Below, in pieces: positions 1-10,914 of a stretch of 60,189 nucleotides of DNA. The notes below the pieces were generated by a model, which saw only the letters and a list, made by a program, of their open reading frames with translations, was not told where the DNA came from and searched no databases. A program made the position numbers and the translations under genes. The DNA comes from Chitinophaga pinensis (lineage in GTDB: Bacteria; Bacteroidota; Bacteroidia; 2-12-FULL-35-15), in NCBI GenBank assembly GCA_945885475.1, contig CAMCYR010000015.1:1-60189 (forward strand). Reading direction: 5' to 3'. Each line of letters begins with the position of its first letter. The first letter of the stretch is position 1.

Positions 1-1076
1 AGTAGCCAGGCAACTTGAATATAGTTAATGTCTCCTAAAGGCGTTCTACATACGAAATCAACTTCAGAAGTTCTATCTGTCCCTGTCCAGATTTTGTTAC
101 CTCTTCGAAGCAATTCAAGATAAACAATATTTTCCAAAATATGTCCACGATTACTGCTTCTATCTTTTCCCATTAGAATATTTAACAATCCTACATCTAC
201 TAAGTAATATTTTTCCTGCGTAGCCAATTGTTTCCTTCCTTTTAGGTCAAAACGATTCACTTTATAAAACACAAAACTCTCAATCAAATAATCTAGGTAT
301 TTTTCAACCGTTGAATGATGTATTGTTTGTCCGTCATTTTTAAGGATTTTTGAAATATTGTTAGGCGAGAGTGCGCTGCCGATATTGGATGCCATGAATT
401 TCACGATGTTGTTAAAAGCACGTTTATCATTGATTTGATGTCTTTGCGTGATGTCCTTTTCTATAATTGTAGTATAAATAGCTTCCAAATATTCCATTAT
501 TTTATCCATGCCCTCTTCGCGAATTACAGTTCCTTTCGGTAGAGAGGTTTCATTTACATAGTCAAAAAATAGAGCTTCATAATTGAGGTATTTATTTGAG
601 AAATCTATTTTTCTTGCGCTTAAATATTCCTTAAATGAAAAGGGTAATATAGAAATTTCAACGTAGCGACCACTTAACAACGTGGCGAGTTCACTGGAAA
701 GGAGGTATGCATTTGAGCCAGTTACGTAGACATCAGTGTTTTCCGAAGCAAATAAACCATCCACTAATCTTTCAAAACTAGGTATATTTTGAATTTCATC
801 AAGAAAGATGTAATTCTGTTTATTCGGAATTAACTTTTCCTTGATTTCAAAATAGAGTTCATTCCAAGTTTTATTCAAATAGTTTTCTGGTAACTCGAAA
901 TTGTATGAATGAATTTGATTACCTTCTATATCTAAGTCTGAGAGTTGATCACGAAACATTGAAAGAAGCGTACTTTTTCCAGAACGTCTCAGTCCGCTAA
1001 TCACTTTGATTAAATCTTTGTCCTTGTATGCAAGTAAACTTGATATATATTCTGTGCGATTTACATACTGTTTCAT
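1..1076 (-). CDS. AAA+ ATPase of the COG1373 / DUF4143 type, 3' end outside window
   Basis: The reading frame starts with ATG at 1076-1074 (MKQYVNRTEY) and is still open at the left edge, so about 358 residues are visible and the C-terminus is missing. Residues 28-36 form a Walker A loop (GLRRSGKST) and residues 89-95 a Walker B strand (YIFLDEIQ). The later part has the PD-(D/E)xK-like tail usual in DUF4143 proteins, with EVDFVCR near the cut end. These ATPases are common in accessory DNA of Bacteroidota and their cellular role is not settled. It is read toward the left edge, away from the tRNA terminator. No partner gene is visible. I am confident of the family and make no claim about function. 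Confidence 0.85.
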   Translation of the reverse strand, partial: MKQYVNRTEYISSLLAYKDKDLIKVISGLRRSGKSTLLSMFRDQLSDLDIEGNQIHSYNFELPENYLNKTWNELYFEIKEKLIPNKQNYIFLDEIQNIPSFERLVDGLFASENTDVYVTGSNAYLLSSELATLLSGRYVEISILPFSFKEYLSARKIDFSNKYLNYEALFFDYVNETSLPKGTVIREEGMDKIMEYLEAIYTTIIEKDITQRHQINDKRAFNNIVKFMASNIGSALSPNNISKILKNDGQTIHHSTVEKYLDYLIESFVFYKVNRFDLKGRKQLATQEKYYLVDVGLLNILMGKDRSSNRGHILENIVYLELLRRGNKIWTGTDRTSEVDFVCRTPLGDINYIQVAWL

Positions 1077-1170
1077 GTAGTAAAGATATCTAAATTATCG
1101 AAACTTGCAGAAAATACATTTTTCGATACATTTGTTTGGAAGATTCAAAAAGAAATTCAATAATCTAAAA

Positions 1171-1195
1171 AAAAGCCCCTTATTCAGGGGCTTTT
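1171..1195 (-). terminator. Rho-independent terminator of tRNA copy 1
   Basis: A 10-bp stem (AAAAGCCCCT / AGGGGCTTTT) with a 5-nt loop is followed, on the minus strand, by a run of T. It begins 9 nt beyond the 3' end of the tRNA at 1205-1278. The second tRNA copy at 10136-10209 has no equivalent hairpin. Confidence 0.8.
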
Positions 1196-1204
1196 AGGGT
1201 GACG

Positions 1205-1278
1205 TGGGCCCACTTGGAATCGAACCAAGCACCCACAGATTATGAGTCTGTTGCTCTAACCGAATGAGCTATAGGCCC
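1205..1278 (-). tRNA. tRNA with CAU anticodon (Met, or Ile2), copy 1
   Basis: On the minus strand the 74 nt fold into a complete cloverleaf: 7-bp acceptor stem (GGGCCTA / TGGGCCC with one G-U pair), 4-bp D stem (GCTC/GAGC), 5-bp anticodon stem (ACAGA/TCTGT) with loop CTCATAA, and a 5-bp T stem (CTTGG/CCAAG) with TTCGATT. The discriminator is A and CCA is not encoded. CAU fits elongator tRNA-Met; a lysidine-modified tRNA-Ile2 cannot be excluded by eye. The sequence is identical to the copy at 10136-10209. It has its own promoter and terminator. Confidence 0.95.
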
Positions 1279-1280
1279 TT

Positions 1281-1338
1281 ACAGCTTAAACACGCTGTAC
1301 AAGGCTACAAATATAGTAATAATTGGTTTTTCCTGCAA
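1281..1338 (-). promoter_or_regulatory. Promoter and leader hairpin of tRNA copy 1
   Basis: Minus strand: TTG (1336-1338), 20 nt, then TATATTTG (1308-1315). This matches the Bacteroidota housekeeping pattern TTG-N17-23-TAnnTTTG. Transcription would begin about 1301. The short leader before the tRNA holds a 6-bp hairpin (TACAGC / GCTGTA) near 1280-1300, possibly a processing signal. Confidence 0.6.
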
Positions 1339-1387
1339 CAGTTAACGTTGCTTATTTTAAGCTAAAAAGTCACTTTTTACCCTAAAA

Positions 1388-1420
1388 CCTGCAAATAACT
1401 TGCACATAACTTGCACATTT
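1388..1420 (+). repeat. Three 11-bp tandem repeats (TTGCAC type), left inner edge of island
   Basis: Three consecutive 11-bp units, CCTGCAAATAA, CTTGCACATAA and CTTGCACATTT, lie 109 bp inside the left tRNA copy. An 11-bp period puts all units on one face of the DNA helix. Related units with the same spacing and orientation occur inside the right tRNA copy. They could be arm-type binding sites for a recombinase or an accessory protein. Confidence 0.6.
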
Positions 1421-1445
1421 GATTGAGCAGATTTTTGCCAAAATC

Positions 1446-1707
1446 CTATGTTATTTGTAGACCAATAAATGGGTGCTTCCATTTTGTGAATGGCGAGTTT
1501 TTTACAATAGCGTCAAACGTACTTGCGAAATCTTTCGCTTTTCCCTTTTCAATTATATCAATGTCAATAGAAAATCTGCGTGGCTCCTTCAATAACAATA
1601 CAAGTATATGTCCAAGTTTGATGTTTTTTTCTTCAAATATATTGTTGGTTCGACATTACCATATACAAGATATTGTTTCTTTGCTAAGTAAATTAACTAA
1701 ACTTTAA
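1446..1707 (-). pseudogene. Remnant of an AbiEii-type nucleotidyltransferase toxin gene
   Basis: On the minus strand, the frame ending at a stop (1448-1446) reads KEPRRFSIDIDIIEKGKA and then FDAIVKNSPFTKWKHPF. The RFS-DIDI block resembles the D-x-D metal-binding segment of AbiEii/AbiGii nucleotidyltransferases. Upstream this frame meets a stop just before 1652, while the neighbouring frame reads LAKKQYLVYGN, which looks like the preceding part before a frameshift. There is no start codon and no complete gene. I therefore read it as a frameshifted internal or C-terminal fragment. The plus-strand open frame over the same DNA has no recognisable content. Confidence 0.5.
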
Positions 1708-1717
1708 ATCTTAATTT

Positions 1718-2476
1718 TTATATCTCAAAAAACAAATCTCTTTGAAATAGTTTATTTTCATTGTGTCTAACGTAACCTAATTGATTCGTTAACATTTGGG
1801 TATTGCTAATATTGAATGGTCGAGTATTAGCATGATGATGACCGTAAATCCAATTACTAATATTTGCGTTTGATATAAGCTCAAATAACTCAACAGCAAA
1901 TGCCTCATTAATTGGACTGCTTTTATATTGTTCAGGATAATTCATTAATGTTGGTACATGATGAGTTACCACTACATTTTTTTCATCATGATGTTCAGAA
2001 AGTGCGGTCTCTAAAAACGTTAAAGATTTTTTATGTAATTCATTAAACTCTAATGCCGTTAGATTACAACCATTATTTTTAATCACAAAAAAATCCGAAA
2101 CACTTTGTTGTATCTTCCAACTGTTTTGCTCACCAATATGACTCCATAGAGTAGAGAAAATAAAATTAACATCTTTAATTTTTACGGATTGATTGTCCAC
2201 TAAAAATAAATTTTCTTTTATTTTTTCGTTTAAAGGATCGGATACGTCTTTCATGTCGTATTGATAGTACTCATGATTGCCCGGTATCCAATAAATTTTT
2301 TCATAATTATCCGACACGAAATCAAAAAAATCACACGGCTTATTAAGCAATGCAAAAGGTAAAATATCGCCCGCTAATAATAGAATATCGCCAACGGGTA
2401 TTAAAGGATGTTGCTTTATAAATGCTCTGTTTTCAGGAAATTCAAGATGTAAATCTGAACAATATTGTACTTTCAT
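1718..2476 (-). CDS. Calcineurin-like metallophosphoesterase
   Basis: The 252-residue protein has the ordered metal-binding motifs of the family: D8-L-H10, G36-D37, G66-N-H-E69, THH near 171 and GHHH near 213. It has no signal peptide or membrane segment, so it should be cytoplasmic. The substrate (nucleotide, phosphodiester or phosphoprotein) cannot be read from the sequence. Its ATG lies 2 bp after the stop of the nucleotidyltransferase gene, so it should be the third gene of the operon starting at 4220. That link to a toxin-antitoxin pair is the unusual point: the enzyme could act on whatever the nucleotidyltransferase modifies, though this is inference. Confidence 0.88.
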   Translation of the reverse strand: MKVQYCSDLHLEFPENRAFIKQHPLIPVGDILLLAGDILPFALLNKPCDFFDFVSDNYEKIYWIPGNHEYYQYDMKDVSDPLNEKIKENLFLVDNQSVKIKDVNFIFSTLWSHIGEQNSWKIQQSVSDFFVIKNNGCNLTALEFNELHKKSLTFLETALSEHHDEKNVVVTHHVPTLMNYPEQYKSSPINEAFAVELFELISNANISNWIYGHHHANTRPFNISNTQMLTNQLGYVRHNENKLFQRDLFFEI

Positions 2477-2478
2477 TT

Positions 2479-3246
2479 TTATTCTTTTAAAATAAATGTA
2501 TTCTCTATTAAATCTAATAAGTCAGTTAGCGAAGTTGTTCCCAATCCTAAATCTTTTATTATTGTAGTAACATCAGGATTTTCGGATTTTACTGTTTGTA
2601 TATAATTTTTTAAATCATCTTTTATTTGTGGAGAAACGTCATAAGTACCTGCAAGAGTAGCTGCCAATTTCAAAACATCTTTCTTGTGCTTTTCAATATC
2701 TTCTGTCCTTACTGCATGACCATCGTCTTTTCTTTTTTTATTGTTTAAATACGCCTTCACTTTTAAACATAACAACGCTGGTTCATTTGCAATTGTTAAT
2801 CCATCGTCATTACTACTATTTTTTATTGTAAACTCGTAATAATCATCATGCAATAACATAGCAGATAAACTTGATATTTCTTCATCTGTTGGAATTGGCG
2901 TTAAATGAAATCCCTCTGGTAATGCTATCGTTTCTGGCTTTCTCGAAAAAAGCTCAACTATTATCGGAAAGTTTTCTTGCTTAGGTTTAATGAAACGAAA
3001 AAACTTTCTTTCCCCTTGCTCAAATTGTCTTTCTTGATATTCGCCATCTTTTATAAACTGCCAAAACTGTTTTAAAAAATCGTTATCTAATGCCTCAATA
3101 ATTAAAAGCATATCAATATCCTTTGTTGCTCTAAATGGAATTCCTTGTCCTTCCAATTTTATTTCACATGCTGTTCCACCAATAATGGTATAATGCTTTT
3201 CGAAGCCAGCAAAGTATTTTTTAAGGGTATCTAATCCTACAACCAT
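2479..3246 (-). CDS. AbiEii-like nucleotidyltransferase, probable toxin
   Basis: The 255-residue protein carries the minimal nucleotidyltransferase signature: IIGGTA at 21-26, then TKDIDML with D43 and D45 as likely metal ligands. Length and layout fit AbiEii/MenT-like toxins, some of which add nucleotides to tRNA 3' ends. The start overlaps the end of the upstream regulator gene by 10 bp, which suggests coupled translation, as in antitoxin-toxin pairs. The next gene, a metallophosphoesterase, follows after 2 bp. A remnant of a second nucleotidyltransferase lies downstream at 1446-1707. Nucleotidyltransferase fold is likely; toxicity and target are inferred from family and context. Confidence 0.8.
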   Translation of the reverse strand: MVVGLDTLKKYFAGFEKHYTIIGGTACEIKLEGQGIPFRATKDIDMLLIIEALDNDFLKQFWQFIKDGEYQERQFEQGERKFFRFIKPKQENFPIIVELFSRKPETIALPEGFHLTPIPTDEEISSLSAMLLHDDYYEFTIKNSSNDDGLTIANEPALLCLKVKAYLNNKKRKDDGHAVRTEDIEKHKKDVLKLAATLAGTYDVSPQIKDDLKNYIQTVKSENPDVTTIIKDLGLGTTSLTDLLDLIENTFILKE

Positions 3247-4220
3247 TTTATATTATTTATCATTTCGGTTAATGCCATTTGTACACGAGGATCGTAATCT
3301 TCTTCCATCGAAAGAAAAAGAGATAAGCAATCTACTTCTTTATGATGAGATAAAAGTAATGGATTATAACTCCATACCTGTATACGATACTCGCCAAATT
3401 TTTTATTTATTTTCCCTTCAAACTCTTTATTTTTTAGCCTACGAAACTCATCTTTCCCAATAGCGTAAGTCGCTTGCCTCCCTTCTGATAATTCGCTGTA
3501 ATTTGCTAGCGCTGAGTCATACGATTTTAGAAACTGCTTAACCTGAATGCTCACTTCAATGTACCAAACATCAATTACAGGCGATTTTAATCTGCTATGA
3601 ACTTTATCCCAAAGCAATTTGCCCTGATCTTTAAATTCTATAAATTTTTCTTTCCCTCCTTTTATCTCACAAAATTCAAATGCGGCTAACTCTCTTATTA
3701 TTCTTGTAACGGTCATTCGAGAATAATTTAATAATTCTGCAATTTCTTGTAATGACAGGTTATTTAATGATTTTACTTGCAAATGGAATAAAATAGCCAC
3801 TTGCGCAGGCGTAGTTAATTTATCGTTGCTAATTTCATATTCAGTTTTTCGCTTGGAAATATTATTTAACTCAAGCATAAGGGAAGGGATATAGATTTGT
3901 TTAAATGGTTCTAAAAACGCGATTTTTTTTTCTATCAGACGTTTTCTTTCGTAAGCCTCTAGTTTATCAAAAACAAATACCACAGGAGCATTCAATAGCT
4001 TTTCTAGCATTTCTCCTTGTTTTTCCAATAATGCAGGAGTGGCGTTTTTTTCATTATTTAGCTTTGCAAAAATTATAGTTAAGCCATTTATAATTCCTTC
4101 GGAAAGCGTATAACTCACCTTTAAATAATAAGGTAAGGTTGCTGCTTTTTTAGCGTCAATTGCTTTTAAAGCTAATTGAACTCCGAAAATTGCTTTTAAA
4201 TATGTCGAAAACTTATCCAT
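3237..4220 (-). CDS. Winged-helix (MarR-like) regulator, probable antitoxin
   Basis: This 327-residue protein has a helix-turn-helix at about 155-182 (LSLQEIAELLNYSRMTVTRI), typical of a MarR-like winged helix. It is followed by a region of about 140 residues that I do not recognise. It overlaps the nucleotidyltransferase start by 10 bp, the arrangement seen for AbiEi-type and related antitoxins that repress their own operon. Directly upstream, a perfect 14-bp inverted repeat covers the promoter, so autorepression is likely. The gene begins the three-gene operon 4220-1718. HTH call is strong; antitoxin role is inferred from gene order. Confidence 0.75.
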   Translation of the reverse strand: MDKFSTYLKAIFGVQLALKAIDAKKAATLPYYLKVSYTLSEGIINGLTIIFAKLNNEKNATPALLEKQGEMLEKLLNAPVVFVFDKLEAYERKRLIEKKIAFLEPFKQIYIPSLMLELNNISKRKTEYEISNDKLTTPAQVAILFHLQVKSLNNLSLQEIAELLNYSRMTVTRIIRELAAFEFCEIKGGKEKFIEFKDQGKLLWDKVHSRLKSPVIDVWYIEVSIQVKQFLKSYDSALANYSELSEGRQATYAIGKDEFRRLKNKEFEGKINKKFGEYRIQVWSYNPLLLSHHKEVDCLSLFLSMEEDYDPRVQMALTEMINNIKWL

Positions 4221-4230
4221 TGTAACTTAA

Positions 4231-4267
4231 ATTTGCATTATAACATAAGTTGTGTTATAATGCAAAT
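4231..4267 (-). promoter_or_regulatory. Operator-like inverted repeat of the antitoxin-toxin operon
   Basis: ATTTGCATTATAAC (4231-4244) and its exact reverse complement GTTATAATGCAAAT (4254-4267) are separated by 9 nt. The repeat ends 10 bp before the ATG at 4220 and overlaps the -7 element at 4263-4270. Binding there would block transcription. Confidence 0.75.
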
Positions 4268-4292
4268 ATAGTGTTAATATTTTGAATAGCAA
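4263..4292 (-). promoter_or_regulatory. Promoter of the regulator-nucleotidyltransferase-phosphoesterase operon
   Basis: Minus strand: TTG (4290-4292), 19 nt, TATATTTG (4263-4270), a full match to the Bacteroidota consensus. The -7 box is part of the right arm of the inverted repeat at 4231-4267. Confidence 0.7.
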
Positions 4293-4483
4293 TGTATTTT
4301 ATTATATTTTTAGGGAATAGCACCTTTAAATGCAGTAGCTAAAAGCGCCAAAAATTTGGAATGGTGCTTATCTCGATGCGCTTGTGCTGAACTTGTAAAA
4401 GTACGAACTGACTTTTTTCAATCACTTCCAGTAGTATGGAACTGGCCTATCAAGAAGGATTTTTTACTGATAACTCAATACAT

Positions 4484-4858
4484 TTATTTATACATCCGCT
4501 TTTTCGGCTTTGTATTTTTAAGTAATATCTGTTCAAGTCTTTCGAGTGTTTTACTCATTTTTAACAAAGCATATTTTACCTCTTCCAATTCTATTTCAGT
4601 AGCATAACCATATTCAGATTTATTTTCTTTAGAAGCAATTGACTCAGCACCATCATAATAAGCAAAAAAATCGTGATTGAGCACTTTGCTGATGGTTTGT
4701 AATTGTCTTGTATCAATGGTTTCTTTTTCAAATACTTTATAAGCTCCGTTTCGGTTTAGGTTGATGCTTTTGGCAAAATCAACAACACTGATAGGTGTTT
4801 TATCTAAAATCTCTTTAATTTTCTTACCAATGTGAATGTTTGCCTTTGCCATTAACAC
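4484..4858 (-). CDS. XRE-like helix-turn-helix regulator
   Basis: The 124-residue protein has a Cro/C1-type helix-turn-helix at about 24-66 (SVVDFAKSINLNRNGAYKVF) and a charged, probably coiled-coil C-terminal part (EIELEEVKYALLKMSKTLERLEQ). ATG at 4858 or 4852 (MAKANIHIG) could be the start; the latter gives the better-looking N-terminus. It is transcribed divergently from the adhesin cassette starting at 4990. The shared 131-bp spacer carries an 8-bp perfect inverted repeat on the cassette promoter, so this protein is the natural candidate regulator of that cassette. Cytoplasmic, DNA-binding. Ligand unknown. Confidence 0.75.
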   Translation of the reverse strand: MLMAKANIHIGKKIKEILDKTPISVVDFAKSINLNRNGAYKVFEKETIDTRQLQTISKVLNHDFFAYYDGAESIASKENKSEYGYATEIELEEVKYALLKMSKTLERLEQILLKNTKPKKRMYK

Positions 4859-4909
4859 AAAGTTGCTTTTTTATGTTTTAGTAGCGTTTTTATAATGCTC
4901 ATTAAAAGT

Positions 4910-4940
4910 TTGCATAATGTATATAATTAGTATACATTTG
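4910..4940 (+). promoter_or_regulatory. Promoter with operator-like repeat, adhesin cassette
   Basis: Plus strand: TTG (4910-4912), 20 nt, TACATTTG (4933-4940), a full consensus match. AATGTATA (4916-4923) and TATACATT (4931-4938), exact reverse complements 7 nt apart, lie between and over the two elements. Start of transcription would be near 4947, leaving about 43 nt of leader before the ATG at 4990. Confidence 0.65.
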
Positions 4941-4989
4941 GTCATATTGCCCGACTCCACTTTTAAAAATCAAACAAATTAAAGCATCT

Positions 4990-5511
4990 ATGAGATTTGA
5001 TATAAAAAAACAGTTGCACTTACTTTTTTGTTGCATTTTTTTGTTGTTGCATTTGGCCTCAAAGGCTCAACTTAATACACCAAACGTTATAGCTTCAGCA
5101 GGAGGATATTTTGCGAATTCTAATTTTTCAAATTCATACACTATTGGAGAAATGTGTGTGGTTGAAACCGCCTTCATAAATGGCGATATGCTAACGCAAG
5201 GTTTTCAGCAACCCGATTACGAAGAAGAATCTGATGTTATAGTACTGGATTTGTTTATACCCAATGGCTTTACACCAAACGGAGATGGCTATAATGATAC
5301 TTGGGAAATCCCTTATTTAAATCAATATCCTGATAGCAAGGTAAAAGTATTTAACCGATGGGGACAAGAGCTATTTAGCGGCATTGGTAACTCAAACCCC
5401 TGGAATGGAACATTTAACGGAAAAGATTTACCAACAGCCGATTACTATTACATTATAGTAATTGATCAGTTAGAAAAAAAATTAACAGGAACCATCACTC
5501 TTAAAAAATAA
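4990..5511 (+). CDS. Small secreted protein with gliding-type (type B) T9SS C-terminal domain
   Basis: The 173-residue protein has a signal peptide (cleavage near KAQ, 25-27), a short N-terminal part of about 50 residues, and a C-terminal domain from about 83 to the end. That domain begins FIPNGFTPNGDGYNDTW and contains VKVFNRWGQELF and GTITLKK, which is the CHU_C / gliding motility-associated C-terminal domain (TIGR04131-like). Such type B domains send proteins through T9SS, and known cases need a PorP/SprF-like partner, which is encoded 2.5 kb downstream. The protein is nearly all sorting domain and too small to be a usual adhesin; it may be an anchor or adaptor for the fibre protein that follows 19 bp later. 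Confidence 0.85.
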   Translation: MRFDIKKQLHLLFCCIFLLLHLASKAQLNTPNVIASAGGYFANSNFSNSYTIGEMCVVETAFINGDMLTQGFQQPDYEEESDVIVLDLFIPNGFTPNGDGYNDTWEIPYLNQYPDSKVKVFNRWGQELFSGIGNSNPWNGTFNGKDLPTADYYYIIVIDQLEKKLTGTITLKK

Positions 5512-5530
5512 ACAACTAATAATTTAATTT

Positions 5531-7441
5531 ATGAAAATCAAAAACCTACTATTAATTTTTACACTTGCCATTTTTACAAAAAGTTTTGCGCAAGCTCCAC
5601 AAGCAGTTAATTACCAGGGTGTGGCGCGTAATGCTGCCGGAAAGCCTTATCCTAGCCAAAATGTAGCTTTGCAAATAAGCATACATGCCAATACAGCAAC
5701 TGGTACCATTGTTTATAAAGAAACACATGCGGCAACCACAAATATTATAGGTTTATATGCCTTGCAAATTGGCCGAGGTACAGCAACTGTAGGAACTTTT
5801 AATACCATTGCTTGGGGTACAGCGCCTTTTTATATGGAAGTGGAAATGGATATTAATGGTGGCACTGCCTATGTAAGTGCAGGCACCACCGAATTAATTT
5901 CGGTGCCTTATGCCTTGTATGCTCAAACAGCAGGCAGTGTAACTACTGGAACTGCTGGAGCTACTGGAGCAACTGGAGCTCAAGGTATTCAGGGCTTAAC
6001 AGGTGCAACTGGTGCAACCGGCGCAGCAGGAACAAATGGAATTGATGGAGCAGTTGGTGCAACGGGTTTAACCGGCGCAACCGGCGCAGCAGGTACCAAC
6101 GGAATTGATGGAGCTATTGGAGCTACAGGTGCAACCGGCTCTCAAGGAATAGCAGGAACAAATGGAATTGATGGTGCTATTGGAGCTACAGGTGTTGCAG
6201 GAACGAACGGACAAAACACTTTGGTTAATACAACAACAGAACCCGTAGGAGCAAATTGTGCCGATGGAGGTACAAAATTAGAATACGGTTTAGATGCTAA
6301 TAATAACGGAACTTTAGATGCTGGAGAAATAAATGCCGCTTTAACAAAATACATTTGTAACGGCGTACAAGGTACTCCAGGCTCATTAAATGCTTGGGCA
6401 TTGTTAGGAAATGCAGGTACAGATTCTACATTAAATTTTGTTGGTACTACCGATAATAATCCTTTAATTTTTAAAACGAACAATACAGAAAAAATAAGAG
6501 TAACAACTGCGGGTAATGTTGGTATTGGTATTTCTAATCCTTTACAAAAATTATCAATAATGGATGCTAATGTAAACGCTGTCCCTTTTGGGATTTCCGA
6601 CAATTCAAATTTTGTAAGATTTACAATAGATTATGAAGGTGACTCAACAACTGCGTATACTAATATTAGGTTAGACCCAAAACCAAAAAGTAACACTGAT
6701 CAAGCTCAATTTAGATTTTTTAGGACAACGAATACAACAGGTCCAAAAAGTGTTGTTTTTTTTAGGGGTAATAATACCACTCAAGGATCTGCTCAAATTG
6801 GAATCGATGGTTTGAATAGTTATTTTCAAAACCACGGCGGTAACTTTGGAATTGGTACATTTAATCCACTTGGTAAATTTCATGTAAACAATGATGCAGT
6901 TGGTTCAGACAGTTCTTTTATTGTTACAACTGCTGGTGATGTTGGCATTGGAACGAGCAGTCCGAATGCAAAATTGAATGTTGTTGGAGAAGAAATATCA
7001 TTAAACGGTTGGGAAAATGCTTGTATTTCTTTGACAACTGGTAGCGGACTAAATAGAAGACCCATGGGTTTTTATGCTTTTGATCAAGTGGGACAAAATG
7101 AATGGTTCATAGGCAGGCCTTATTCTCCTTTCGCGGTTGGACAATCAGATTGTTTTGTAATACAGCGATTAAATACATCTGTACATTCCTTTACTACTTC
7201 TGCTATTCTTTCTGGTAGCGCAATTCCAACGGCAACGCAAAGATTCTTTGTCGTAAAAAACAATGGTTTCATTGGTATTGGAACAGATTCACCTGCTCGA
7301 ACACTTCATGTGAATGCTGTTATGCGTTTAGAGCCAATTGCAACTGCTCCAACCTCTCCTGCTAAAGGAGATATGTATTTTGATAGTACGCTCAATAAAC
7401 TCCGTGTTTATGACGGTACCGTTTGGCAGAGTTGCTGGTAA
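5531..7441 (+). CDS. Secreted collagen-like fibre protein
   Basis: The 636 residues comprise a signal peptide (to about residue 21) and a conserved N-terminal domain ([14 protein letters not shown] to [11 protein letters not shown], 24-134). A Gly-X-Y collagen-like segment (about 140-227) rich in GATGATG and GTNGIDG follows, then a DUF7151-like segment with paired Cys (228-284). The rest has repeated GNVGIG-type blocks like those of phage-tail-fibre or S-layer-like surface proteins. The end ([24 protein letters not shown]) is a common C-terminal motif of such proteins. It has no T9SS sorting domain of its own. It lies between a small type B domain protein and a PorP/SprF-OmpA fusion, suggesting a surface filament. 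Function in adhesion is inferred. Confidence 0.85.
5948..6211 (+). repeat. Collagen-like Gly-X-Y coding repeat
   Basis: The DNA encoding residues 140-227 is made of near-identical 9-nt and 23-nt blocks, for instance GGAGCTACTGGAGCAACTGG and repeated copies of GGAACAAATGGAATTGATGG. Slippage or recombination in whole-codon steps could change fibre length without breaking the frame. Confidence 0.8.
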
Positions 7442-7463
7442 TAATTTAAAAAATAGAAAAAAT

Positions 7464-7868
7464 ATGTTTTTTCCTAAAGAACACCCTGAAATAAATAAGT
7501 TTTTTCAAAATATTGTAAAATTAAATGAAAAGGCTGCAAGTTTACTCGAAAGAAGAGGAGAAAATGAATTGTTAGAGCGATTAAAAGATTTTTCAGGAAG
7601 TATCTTTGAAAAATTGAGCGCAATGCCATTTTTAGATACCGTTAGTATTCATGAAGAGATACTCATTAAAGAAATTGCATTAGTAAATAGTATTTTTTCA
7701 AGATTCAAACTGGAAATATCTCGTATAGTAAAGGTTGCTAAGATTGTAATTAATAGCTTGAAAGATTTTGCCACTGATGAACTAAAAAAGATATTTACCT
7801 TGATGGATGAATTGATAGATTTAATTGAATTTATTTGGCAAAAATTCCAAAGTAAAAATTTTATATAA
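7464..7868 (+). CDS. Small all-helical protein of unknown function
   Basis: The 134-residue product begins at ATG 7464 (MFFPKEHPEINKFF), 22 bp after the stop of the fibre gene; an upstream in-frame ATG at 7338 lies inside that gene and is less likely. The sequence is rich in Leu, Ile, Glu and Lys, with heptad-like spacing that suggests long helices, and it has no signal peptide. I do not recognise a family. Position inside the surface cassette suggests a cytoplasmic or membrane-associated helper, but nothing in the sequence proves it. A 7-bp hairpin (GTTGTTG / CAACAAC, 7880-7900) follows without a T-run. Confidence 0.55.
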   Translation: MFFPKEHPEINKFFQNIVKLNEKAASLLERRGENELLERLKDFSGSIFEKLSAMPFLDTVSIHEEILIKEIALVNSIFSRFKLEISRIVKVAKIVINSLKDFATDELKKIFTLMDELIDLIEFIWQKFQSKNFI

Positions 7869-7979
7869 TTTCTGCCCTTGTTGTTGTTATCACCAACAAC
7901 CTAAAGATGAAATTAAAAGGTTACACAAATACTAGCATATTTTCATAATCTAAGTCAATATGATAATACATTACCAGTC

Positions 7980-9596
7980 ATGAAAAAAATTATAAAATAT
8001 AGTTTAGTAGTTTTAGTGTTATGCTTTGGTGTAACAACAGTTTTTGCCCAACAACAAACTCGTTTCACTCAGTTTATGTGGCATGAGTACATTATAAACC
8101 CAGCCTACACCGGGGGTTTGGCGTATAACCCTGTGCAGCTCAGCTATCGCAAACAATGGCAAGGCTTTAATGGTAGCCCCGAAACATTTACTTTTGGCGG
8201 GCATGCCGCGCTTAACCCAAAAATGGGTTTAGGAGCTATGGTGTTTAAAGATAATATGGGTGGTGCCATTACTCAAACCGGCATTATGGTTAATTATGCC
8301 TATCGGGTGCGTTTAAATAAGCAATCTAATTTATCGTTTGGTTTAAGTGGAATTATTAATCAGTTTGTATTTGATAACACCAAAATAAATGCTTTAAATG
8401 TTAATGATCCAAGTTTTCAGGGCGGTGTTCAAAAAAGTACCGCACCCGATGCTATGTTTGGCATATTATACAAATACAAACAAAAATTAACTATTGGTTT
8501 TAGTTCTTCGCAATTAGTACAAAGCAAACTCAAAAACTTAAACGATGTACCTGGCGCTAATAATCGTTTAATAAGGCATTATAATGCTCAAATATCCTAT
8601 AATTTTATTGTGAATGATAAACTTAATATTGAGCCATCATTATTAGCAAAAGCTACAGAAGTAACACCAATGCAGTTAGATGTAAATTTAAGAGGGTGGT
8701 ATCAAAATTTGTTGATGTTAGGTTTTACGTATCGTCACCAAGATGCTTTTGCCGCGTTGTTAGGAGTGAAATACAAAAATATGTTTGTTGGTTATAGTTA
8801 TGATATAAGTACTTCTGCTATTCAATCTTATAATAATGGCTCACACGAAATTGTAATGGGTTATCATTTTGGCGCAAAAACAGAAGATACCGATAAAGAT
8901 GGTGTTTTAGATCATAAAGATAAATGCCCAGATGCAGCAGGTCCAAAAGAAAACAATGGTTGCCCTTGGGGTGATACAGATAAGGATGGCGTTGCCGATA
9001 ATTTAGATAAATGCCCTGATGCAGCGGGTCCAAAAGAAAATAATGGTTGCCCTTGGGGAGATAAAGATAGCGATGGCGTTGCTGACAACGTTGATCAATG
9101 TCCAGATGTAGCAGGTTCAAAAGAAGACAATGGTTGCCCACCAAAAGATACCGATAAAGATGGAATTATAGACAAATTGGATAAGTGCCCGATGACGATG
9201 GGAGATGCTAAAAATAGTGGGTGTCCAATAGTTTCAGATAATCAAAAAGCCATTATTAGTAAAGCCATTAGTAATTTAGAGTTTGAAAATAATAGCGGTA
9301 ACATTGCTAAGGGTTCATTTATAGCATTAGACATGTTAGCTATTTTATTATCAGAAAAAAGTGATTGGAAAATGCGTTTTGCAGGGCACACTGATAATGT
9401 CGGTAATGATGAATTTAACATGACCTTAAGTAAACAGCGTTCGGAGGCTGTGAGAGATTATTTGGTAAAAAAAGGAATTAGTACTGAACGATTTTTTGTA
9501 GAGCATTACGGCGAAACAAAACCAATTGCACCAAACGACACACCACAAGGCCGCGAAAAAAACAGAAGGGTTGAAATGACTTTTGTGTTTGATTAA
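7980..9596 (+). CDS. PorP/SprF-family outer-membrane protein fused to TSP3 repeats and OmpA domain
   Basis: The 538 residues are a signal peptide (1-24), a PorP/SprF barrel (about 25-298, starting with the typical TRFTQFMWHEYIINPAYTGG), four calcium-binding thrombospondin type-3 repeats (about 301-414, DTDKDGVxDxxDKCPD) and an OmpA-like peptidoglycan-binding domain (about 425-538, with GHTDNVG and GREKNRRVEM). PorP/SprF proteins sit in the outer membrane and help T9SS cargo with type B domains reach or stay on the surface. The OmpA domain would tie the barrel to peptidoglycan. It is encoded downstream of a type B domain protein and a fibre protein, its likely clients. Confidence 0.92.
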   Translation: MKKIIKYSLVVLVLCFGVTTVFAQQQTRFTQFMWHEYIINPAYTGGLAYNPVQLSYRKQWQGFNGSPETFTFGGHAALNPKMGLGAMVFKDNMGGAITQTGIMVNYAYRVRLNKQSNLSFGLSGIINQFVFDNTKINALNVNDPSFQGGVQKSTAPDAMFGILYKYKQKLTIGFSSSQLVQSKLKNLNDVPGANNRLIRHYNAQISYNFIVNDKLNIEPSLLAKATEVTPMQLDVNLRGWYQNLLMLGFTYRHQDAFAALLGVKYKNMFVGYSYDISTSAIQSYNNGSHEIVMGYHFGAKTEDTDKDGVLDHKDKCPDAAGPKENNGCPWGDTDKDGVADNLDKCPDAAGPKENNGCPWGDKDSDGVADNVDQCPDVAGSKEDNGCPPKDTDKDGIIDKLDKCPMTMGDAKNSGCPIVSDNQKAIISKAISNLEFENNSGNIAKGSFIALDMLAILLSEKSDWKMRFAGHTDNVGNDEFNMTLSKQRSEAVRDYLVKKGISTERFFVEHYGETKPIAPNDTPQGREKNRRVEMTFVFD

Positions 9597-9657
9597 GCAA
9601 AGTGACTTCGAGTGCGAGGTACGATTGTAGAGAGAAGAGGATTTTGTTAGTCAGCTC

Positions 9658-9942
9658 TTGTTGTTACTATTAATTTTTATATTAATCGTGTATGTATTAT
9701 ATGCAAAAAAATCAGAACCATTAAAACCAAGCATTTACAAAGAAGCAGCAGAAACTATTATTGAGGAGATAGTACATCCAGAAATACCAAAACCTTCTCC
9801 AATACTAAAAAATAAATGGTTACATGTAAGTGATGAATTTGGAGTGATGCACCCCGGGATCTCTGAACTTTATTATCCTGCAAAAAAATTGTGCCCGGGA
9901 AATAATACGCACACATCAAGAACCAGATCCGTGTTATTGTAA
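9658..9942 (+). CDS. Possible small membrane protein at the island edge
   Basis: An open frame of 94 codons starts at TTG 9658; there is no ATG in frame upstream before the stop at 9628. The first 17 residues form a hydrophobic segment (LLLLIFILIVYVLY) followed by a Lys/Glu/Pro-rich part. I do not recognise it. It could be a small single-pass protein or the 3' remnant of a larger gene cut off when the island formed. Non-ATG start and odd C-terminus keep confidence low. Confidence 0.3.
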   Translation: MLLLLIFILIVYVLYAKKSEPLKPSIYKEAAETIIEEIVHPEIPKPSPILKNKWLHVSDEFGVMHPGISELYYPAKKLCPGNNTHTSRTRSVLL

Positions 9943-10090
9943 CTATTTCCTAGTAAAAATTAATGATTGTATGTTTTCCTAACTACAAAACATTTCTCTG
10001 AAGGAAAAAATCTTTATTAAATTATATATTTTCTAAAGATTAAAATTAATCCTACTTTTAACCAACTAATAATTATTAATCAGGTAAAAA

Positions 10091-10112
10091 CTTGCACAAT
10101 ACATGCACAAGG
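10091..10112 (+). repeat. Two 11-bp repeats (TTGCAC/ATGCAC type), right inner edge of island
   Basis: CTTGCACAATA (10091-10101) and CATGCACAAGG (10102-10112) are adjacent 11-bp units, 23 bp inside the right tRNA copy, in the same orientation as the three units at 1388-1420. The rest of 9943-10135 shows only a 7-bp inverted repeat (ATGTTTT / AAAACAT, 9971-9993) and AT-rich DNA. Confidence 0.55.
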
Positions 10113-10135
10113 ATTATGTCATAGGCTGAAAGTGG

Positions 10136-10209
10136 TGGGCCCACTTGGAATCGAACCAAGCACCCACAGATTATGAGTCTGTTGCTCTAACCGAATGAGC
10201 TATAGGCCC
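10136..10209 (-). tRNA. tRNA with CAU anticodon (Met, or Ile2), copy 2
   Basis: Identical over all 74 nt to the copy at 1205-1278, with the same cloverleaf and loop CTCATAA. A TAATTTTG box at 10231-10224 (minus strand) could serve as its -7 element; no clear TTG sits at the right distance. No terminator hairpin follows on the minus strand, so its transcript may run into the island edge. Confidence 0.95.
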
Positions 10210-10287
10210 TTTTTGTATTGCTACAAAATTAGGAAGGCGAAATTATAAATTTATAACGAATTAACAAAGTTCCTTTCCCTTTATATT

Positions 10288-10914
10288 ATGGATATTAGTA
10301 AAAACAAAATTAAAAATATCATATTTGATCTGGGTGGTGTAATCATAAACATTGACTATGCGCTCTTAATAGGTGCTTTTTCTGAAATCGGTCTTCCAGA
10401 TTTTGAAATGCATTTTTCTCAACTGAAACAAAAGGATTTGTTCGATCTTTATGAAAAAGGGTTAATATCTTCTCAGGATTTCAGGGATGAGCTGAAAAAA
10501 CATTGTAAAACTGGGACTACAGATACAGAAATCGATACTGCCTGGAATGCGATGCTGCTCGATCTTCCGAAAGAACGCCTAGAGTTGATATTGAATGTTA
10601 AAAATAAATATCGGACATTCTTATTGAGTAATACGAATGAAATTCACATGCTTTTTATTTACGATTATCTAAAAAAACAGTTGCAAATTCCTGATTTTAA
10701 TGAGCACTTCGAAAAAGTCTATCTCTCTTATGAAATACACATGCGCAAACCCGATGCTGAAATATTTGAATTTGTGATTAATCAAAATAGTCTTCTTAAA
10801 GAGGAGACGCTTTTTATAGACGATTCTGTTCAACACATTGAAAGTGGTAAAATAGCGGGTATTCAGACGTATTTACTGGATGTAAAAAAAGAGAGTATCA
10901 TCGACTTATTTTAA
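10288..10914 (+). CDS. HAD-superfamily hydrolase, YihX-like
   Basis: The 208-residue cytoplasmic protein has the four HAD motifs: I, FDLGGVIINID at about 13-23 with Asp nucleophile; II, LLSNTNE near 113; III, Lys in RKPDAEIF near 154; IV, LFIDDSV near 174. Motif I has Gly where many HAD phosphatases have the second Asp, as in YihX-type sugar-phosphate phosphatases. The helical cap lies between motifs I and II. The substrate is probably a small phosphorylated metabolite and cannot be named. It is the first gene outside the tRNA-bounded island and stands alone. Confidence 0.88.
   Translation: MDISKNKIKNIIFDLGGVIINIDYALLIGAFSEIGLPDFEMHFSQLKQKDLFDLYEKGLISSQDFRDELKKHCKTGTTDTEIDTAWNAMLLDLPKERLELILNVKNKYRTFLLSNTNEIHMLFIYDYLKKQLQIPDFNEHFEKVYLSYEIHMRKPDAEIFEFVINQNSLLKEETLFIDDSVQHIESGKIAGIQTYLLDVKKESIIDLF

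Follow-up and report, generated by a model that had tools for sequence, protein, structure and literature searches.

A probable decayed integrative element between two complete tRNA-CAU genes in an uncultured lake bacterium of the Bacteroidota

The window treated here, a 60,189-bp stretch of DNA (contig CAMCYR010000015.1), belongs to a metagenome-assembled genome (MAG) of an uncultured Bacteroidota lake bacterium; nearly all genomes compared with it are MAGs as well. Near its left end a 77-nt direct repeat (1204-1280 and 10135-10211, identical at 77 of 77 positions, the copies 8931 bp apart) encloses the island that is the subject of this report. Both copies, on the minus strand, fold as a complete tRNA with a CAU anticodon, confirming the perfect whole-gene duplication that an initial annotation had claimed, and the length of the repeat excludes a chance origin. 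The annotation's list of contents also held: a toxin-antitoxin-like operon (1718-4220), a putative toxin remnant (1446-1598) and a surface cassette (4990-9596). Features are collected in Table 1.

Table 1. Features of the island, its two ends and its flanks, with recombinase loci of congeners in the last row
Coordinates	Strand	Feature	Basis or remark
1-1076	-	AAA_14/DUF4143 gene of the left flank, truncated here, rest in C32 beyond the contig end	Profile and contig overlap
1167-1197	-	Intrinsic-terminator-like hairpin AAAAGCCCCTGAATAAGGGGCTTTTTTTT, chromosomal terminator of the tRNA	Sequence
1204-1280	-	Left tRNA-CAU copy: element promoter, complete tRNA, chromosomal terminator	Fold, repeat identity, congener comparison
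1281-1390	-	Element-borne tRNA promoter (predicted), conserved ATTACTATATTTG	Alignment of six element ends; 99% identical to G006
1387-1425	-	Integrase-side putative arm-type sites TGTGCAAGTTATGTGCAAGTTATTTGCAG	~156-170 bp from anticodon
1426-1447	-	Last bases homologous to the G006 element	Homology stops ~10 bp before G006 integrase start codon
1446-1598	-	Fragment similar to the N terminus of an AbiEii-like nucleotidyltransferase, where relatives have the integrase	Translation; family by eye, without profile match
1718-2476	-	Calcineurin-like metallophosphoesterase	Pfam PF00149, E=1e-12; weak partial PADLOC PDC-S10
2479-3246	-	Predicted nucleotidyltransferase, GGTA...DID motif, putative toxin	Motif kept in three homologues
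3237-4220	-	Winged-helix (MarR-like) protein, putative partner or regulator of the nucleotidyltransferase	PF01047, E=1.4e-5
4484-4858	-	Predicted small helix-turn-helix protein	Sequence
4990-5511	+	Secreted protein, CHU_C / type IX secretion system (T9SS) type-B sorting domain	Domain profiles
5531-7441	+	Collagen-like surface protein with DUF7151	Domain profiles
7464-7868	+	Hypothetical protein, 134 aa	Open reading frame (ORF)
7980-9596	+	PorP/SprF - TSP3 - OmpA outer-membrane protein	Domain profiles
9877-10134	.	Distal element end	97% identical to G007; last, tRNA-proximal 121 bp 99% identical to G006
10088-10112	.	Distal putative arm-type sites TTGTGCATGTATTGTGCAAG (minus strand)	~76 bp from anticodon; repeat comparison
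10135-10211	-	Right tRNA-CAU copy: chromosomal promoter, complete tRNA, element end	Conserved HAD-side promoter upstream, as in congeners
10288-10914	+	HAD-family core gene of the right flank, divergent from the adjacent tRNA	Conserved synteny
L022 1855-3417 (G023); L030 9236-10798 (G016); L031 9052-10614 (G002); L107 9211-10773 (G045); L110 9355-10917 (G048)		Large serine recombinase loci	

The repeat occurs twice in the source genome (84 contigs, 99% complete), with no third copy. Contig-end overlaps in this assembly are 149 bp long, so a 77-bp repeat is spanned by the assembler and the duplication is not an assembly collapse. The repeated tRNA is probably tRNA-Ile2; its acceptor pairs C4-G69 and C5-G68 fit what we take to be identity elements of that tRNA, and both are missing from the other CAU tRNA of the genome, on contig C8. 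Next to that other tRNA-CAU, which is Met-like, a prophage-like region is inserted that encodes both a serine resolvase and a tyrosine integrase (G000:C8, L079 7324-8718). Identity between the left and right copies ends at the tRNA edges, and each has a different native neighbour. With the native promoter on the right and the native terminator on the left, the chromosomal tRNA gene has thus been split in function.

To the right of the island the HAD-OMP-PAP2-RpoN genes form a conserved core, the ordinary sequence that the annotation had placed there. The divergent pair of HAD gene and tRNA gene is kept throughout the genus and in other families; congeners were retrieved through this HAD gene and, judging by record names, are mostly lake-water MAGs. 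The left flank is not simply core, since the terminator is followed by an AAA_14/DUF4143 gene and only then by the core gene for methylmalonyl-CoA epimerase (MCE). Contig C32, which overlaps the window start by 149 bp, holds the rest of the AAA_14/DUF4143 gene, then MCE and the same core genes. The annotation had suggested a search of relatives for an empty site, and one was found in G011. There, a contig ending in HAD, promoter and tRNA overlaps by 149 bp a contig starting with promoter, tRNA, terminator and MCE, and the two join into a single-tRNA unoccupied site, HAD-tRNA-terminator-MCE. Together with the C32 overlap, this site gives the native order as HAD-tRNA-(AAA)-MCE and marks the 8.9 kb as an insertion. 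GC content shows no clear difference between island and flanks.

Two observations on this neighborhood stand apart. The G011 contigs (ends of L016 and L017) break exactly at the tRNA, at the 149-bp overlap; speculatively, such a break would be a graph branch if part of the population carries an insert. The block of tRNA and HAD has opposite orientations, with respect to the adjoining core genes MCE and OMP, in two groups of the genus (L026 and L112 versus the window).

The left end of the island ties it to an integrase. Positions 1204-1447 of the window are 99% identical to contig C188 of G006 (L019), compared with 75% for the HAD-to-RpoN core DNA of the same pair of genomes. In G006 this homologous end runs straight into the start of a tyrosine integrase gene (MATIKLTIDARRPYNDGRSP). 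The annotation's proposal of an element integrated at the tRNA, cis-mobilizable or fossil, is supported by this end together with the unoccupied site and the missing integrase. Integrases of the same family stand in the same position and orientation, beside promoter and tRNA end, in G023 (L022) and G042 (L112); these are full-length (~400 aa), with Arm-DNA-bind_5 and Phage_int_SAM_5 domains and conserved C-terminal motifs. The absence of an integrase from the island, noted by the annotation, was borne out by tblastn of five cognate integrases against window positions 1-10300, which found neither gene nor remnant (best E 0.06, in non-coding DNA). Elsewhere in the window's genome, where the annotation had advised looking, no cognate integrase was found at E<=1e-20.

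Six integrase-side ends could be aligned; in each of them two TGCAAGTTA-type repeats precede a promoter-like block (ATTACTATATTTG), which the tRNA follows. The predicted element promoter, TTG-N20-TATATTTG, resembles the -33/-7 boxes of Bacteroidota. Putative integrase arm sites of TGTGCAAGTTA type are present at both island ends, and arm repeats are found beside the integrase genes of G023, G042, G009, G020 and G045 as well. For five distal ends the alignment is free of gaps between tRNA nucleotide 1 and a second TGTGCA/TGCAAG repeat pair. The 60-kb window has four CTTGCAC sites, three of which fall at the ends of the island.

The right end of G007 was tried as that of an identical island and rejected; its homology to the window extends only to 9877, beyond which G007 carries different cargo with a type I restriction subunit. 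Since G007 has the same right end and differs in cargo only, the comparison is one of cargo turnover, not of absence of a unit. The annotation had counted unrelated DNA between the tRNA copies of relatives as an argument against an integrated unit: different cargo does occur in G007, but the right end of the element is the same.

The G042 repeats end at tRNA nucleotide 38, which suggests a crossover within the anticodon loop. On the distal side, identity to the tRNA reaches no further than nucleotide 54 or 51 in G008 and G018, where the native-promoter copy is therefore broken; a complete tRNA 3' half fills this distal space in the window, G006 and G007. The integrase family also uses other targets, tRNA-Asn in G009, G020 and G047, and tRNA-Lys in G045. 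The G009 element has the ordinary 3'-fragment layout with a 50-nt repeat, and in the G045 element the tRNA likewise points away from the integrase. The promoter-swapping layout is demonstrated only for the CAU-tRNA members of the family.

We consider the island very likely to be a decayed integrative element, of the cis-mobilizable type (CIME), at a genus-wide hotspot. As expected of a CIME, attL and attR are retained (77-nt repeat, element promoter and arm repeats) and the integration gene is lost. In the mechanism that we propose, a Bacteroidota-family tyrosine integrase (Arm-DNA-bind_5 and Phage_int_SAM_5) would have carried out recombination between the attP of the element and the tRNA-CAU gene of the chromosome, with the anticodon loop as the probable site of crossover. 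The attP of this lineage would comprise a whole tRNA gene, a promoter for it on the integrase side, and arm sites lying outside the tRNA at either end, so that integration would leave two complete tRNA genes. The right product would consist of chromosomal promoter, tRNA and distal element end, and the left product of element promoter, tRNA and chromosomal terminator. An attachment site that holds the full tRNA with its own promoter explains why the whole tRNA is duplicated. The integrase would later have been deleted, with a breakpoint ~10 bp before its start codon, and the interior now holds defence-like and surface genes. Because the att ends remain intact, a related integrase from an incoming element could still excise the island or add a second element in tandem; re-mobilization would need such an incoming relative, since the genome is without a cognate integrase.

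Several points weigh against this reading. No single contig carries a complete integrase-bearing element with exactly both ends of the window, as G006 is broken between the ends. Transfer genes were never seen, so that the ancestor could be an integrative and conjugative element (ICE), an integrative and mobilizable element (IME) or a satellite, and no relaxase was recognized among the scanned proteins of the G042 element, although integrase-bearing relatives do exist. CTTGCAC is clustered, with no over-representation across the window as a whole. Finally, the comparison draws almost throughout on MAGs.

Among the alternatives, the one that survives best, though with only a small chance, is that two successive elements or a larger array are present, so that the AAA_14 gene on the left would belong to a second element and the window would show only the inside of an accretion. 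The gene is not at this site in congeners, and G013 alone of the genus gave a DNA match over it; a tandem array at this tRNA is clear in G006. However, the stretch of C32 from the AAA gene to core MCE showed neither a repeat nor a piece of tRNA. The gene itself (window 1-1076, L076 19356-19658) matches the PADLOC candidate PDC-S01 at E 3e-125. Somewhat less probable is an active, satellite-like element mobilized in trans by an integrase or phage elsewhere in the cell. Both att ends look intact, and other integrases of the genome are encoded on C83, C37 and C8; yet none of these belongs to the cognate family at E<=1e-20, the C8 prophage integrase is at a different tRNA-Met, and a search of viral contigs and plasmids found no relative of the cognate integrase. 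Ordinary duplication of the tRNA gene, with unrelated accessory genes gathered between the copies, is very improbable: duplicate tRNA genes are common in bacteria and the tRNA body alone is silent on the copying process, but identity stops at the tRNA edges with a different native neighbour at each copy, ends of integrase-bearing elements in other species match the new promoter and arm repeats at up to 99% identity, and the homologous end adjacent to the G006 integrase largely refutes it.

The locus is a hotspot across the genus. Partial or extra tRNA copies are present in G004 (the 3' 49 nt of the tRNA), G006, G008, G017, G018, G022, G042 and G049. G006 has two full copies and one 3' fragment in a tandem array (L020, L019, L036) made up of a small element with its own promoter, a window-type element with integrase, and a third element with a 568-aa integrase, ending in tRNA nucleotides 34-77 beside MCE. 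Its native promoter is truncated, and element promoters were found on both full copies. In G008 the tRNA behind the native promoter is cut short at its 3' end, and an element promoter stands before the intact copy that was found; G018 has the same truncated native-promoter tRNA, and no intact copy was found in its incomplete genome. In both, the 5' piece of the tRNA stays beside the native promoter, and in G008 the element end supplies a new 5' part.

Other recombination-related features were observed at the same tRNA. A 520-aa large serine recombinase ends inside its 3' half, on the opposite strand, in five congeners (Table 1), and is a second recombinase type at this locus. In other tRNA copies the palindrome CCCGATAGCTATCGGG replaces the anticodon loop (L024 9100-9661 in G017; L105 9547-9716 in G049; L153 1-560 in the MAG nzgw126). 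After the palindrome copy, G017 and G049 have a full tRNA copy and a GIY-YIG ORF or its remnant. The GIY-YIG ORF of L153 lies between direct repeats that resemble a tRNA 5' half whose D loop and anticodon loop both hold palindromes; this arrangement may be a homing element derived from a tRNA. G003 has 52 occurrences of CCCGATAGCTATCGGG, and the window's genome has none.

The cargo comprises the two groups listed in Table 1. The winged-helix, nucleotidyltransferase and metallophosphoesterase genes form one operon, and the surface cassette is a T9SS type-B, collagen-like and PorP-OmpA series. A Pfam search with the nucleotidyltransferase gave no match, and PDB sequence searches with it and with the winged-helix protein returned nothing significant. 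The best matches to the predicted fold of the nucleotidyltransferase (pLDDT 71) are nucleotidyltransferases, at a weak E of 0.02; with no Pfam match and a weak fold match, 'toxin' stays a prediction. The three-gene unit recurs with changed gene order in G016 and G045 (L200 7731-10368; L201 6116-8741). The G045 unit is embedded in an apparent type I restriction operon, beside a patatin and a CD-NTase-like gene (the latter names assigned by eye from translations). Its recurrence and its setting in G045 support a role in defence or as a toxin-antitoxin pair, and we propose the unit as a candidate for an unnamed system of one of these kinds.

Among known systems the closest likeness is to the CIMEs known from work on ICESt1 and ICESt3 (defined in PMC5704250), which keep attL and attR, have lost the integration gene, and have integrase-bearing relatives and tandem arrays at their site. 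The island differs in that its attachment site is a whole self-promoted tRNA gene, and no ancestral transfer genes were seen. In the Islander survey, 3' fragments accounted for 3760 of 3919 islands and 5' fragments for 159 of 3919 (PMC4383910). The G008 and G018 elements are like the latter, the displaced piece being the tRNA 5' part beside the native promoter and the G008 end supplying a new 5' part, whereas the window has the element promoter at its left copy with no displaced fragment and with both copies complete. Insertion on the 5', promoter-swapping side and carriage of a whole tRNA are the less usual features.

Promoter replacement is seldom met in bacteria and is typical of pTN3-like archaeal elements (PMC8371274; PMC5495485). 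The integrase gene of those elements splits on integration; here it is intact beside att in relatives, and the element appears to carry a dedicated tRNA promoter. In tRNA-dependent lysogeny, phages supply a tRNA of their own that matches the target isotype, tRNA-Ile2-CAT being among those known (PMC10865867), but there the tRNA is separate from attP and the core is ~10 bp, whereas here the tRNA is the attP, with 77-nt identity. In the open-access literature that we searched, no description was found of a complete self-promoted tRNA that serves as attP, stands beside the integrase in relatives and is kept twice after decay.

The island points to an element that carries a complete self-promoted tRNA as its attachment site and leaves two apparently working copies, and to promoter swapping at a conserved tRNA. 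This class would be expected to escape island finders that, like the Islander filters, depend on a tRNA fragment with an integrase close by. We suggest, tentatively and with more doubt than confidence, that elements of this family capture an essential tRNA present in one copy (probably tRNA-Ile2, which reads AUA codons) by putting a promoter and 5' half of their own in place of the native ones, the whole-tRNA attP of the window being a derived, harmless version. If so, the host would rely on DNA of the element for a tRNA that it cannot do without, and loss of the element would be costly even though no toxin is involved. The relatives form a natural series at one locus in one uncultured lake genus, from the unoccupied site through 5'-fragment, whole-tRNA and tandem-array forms to the integrase-less remnant, and so allow decay and promoter capture to be traced stage by stage.

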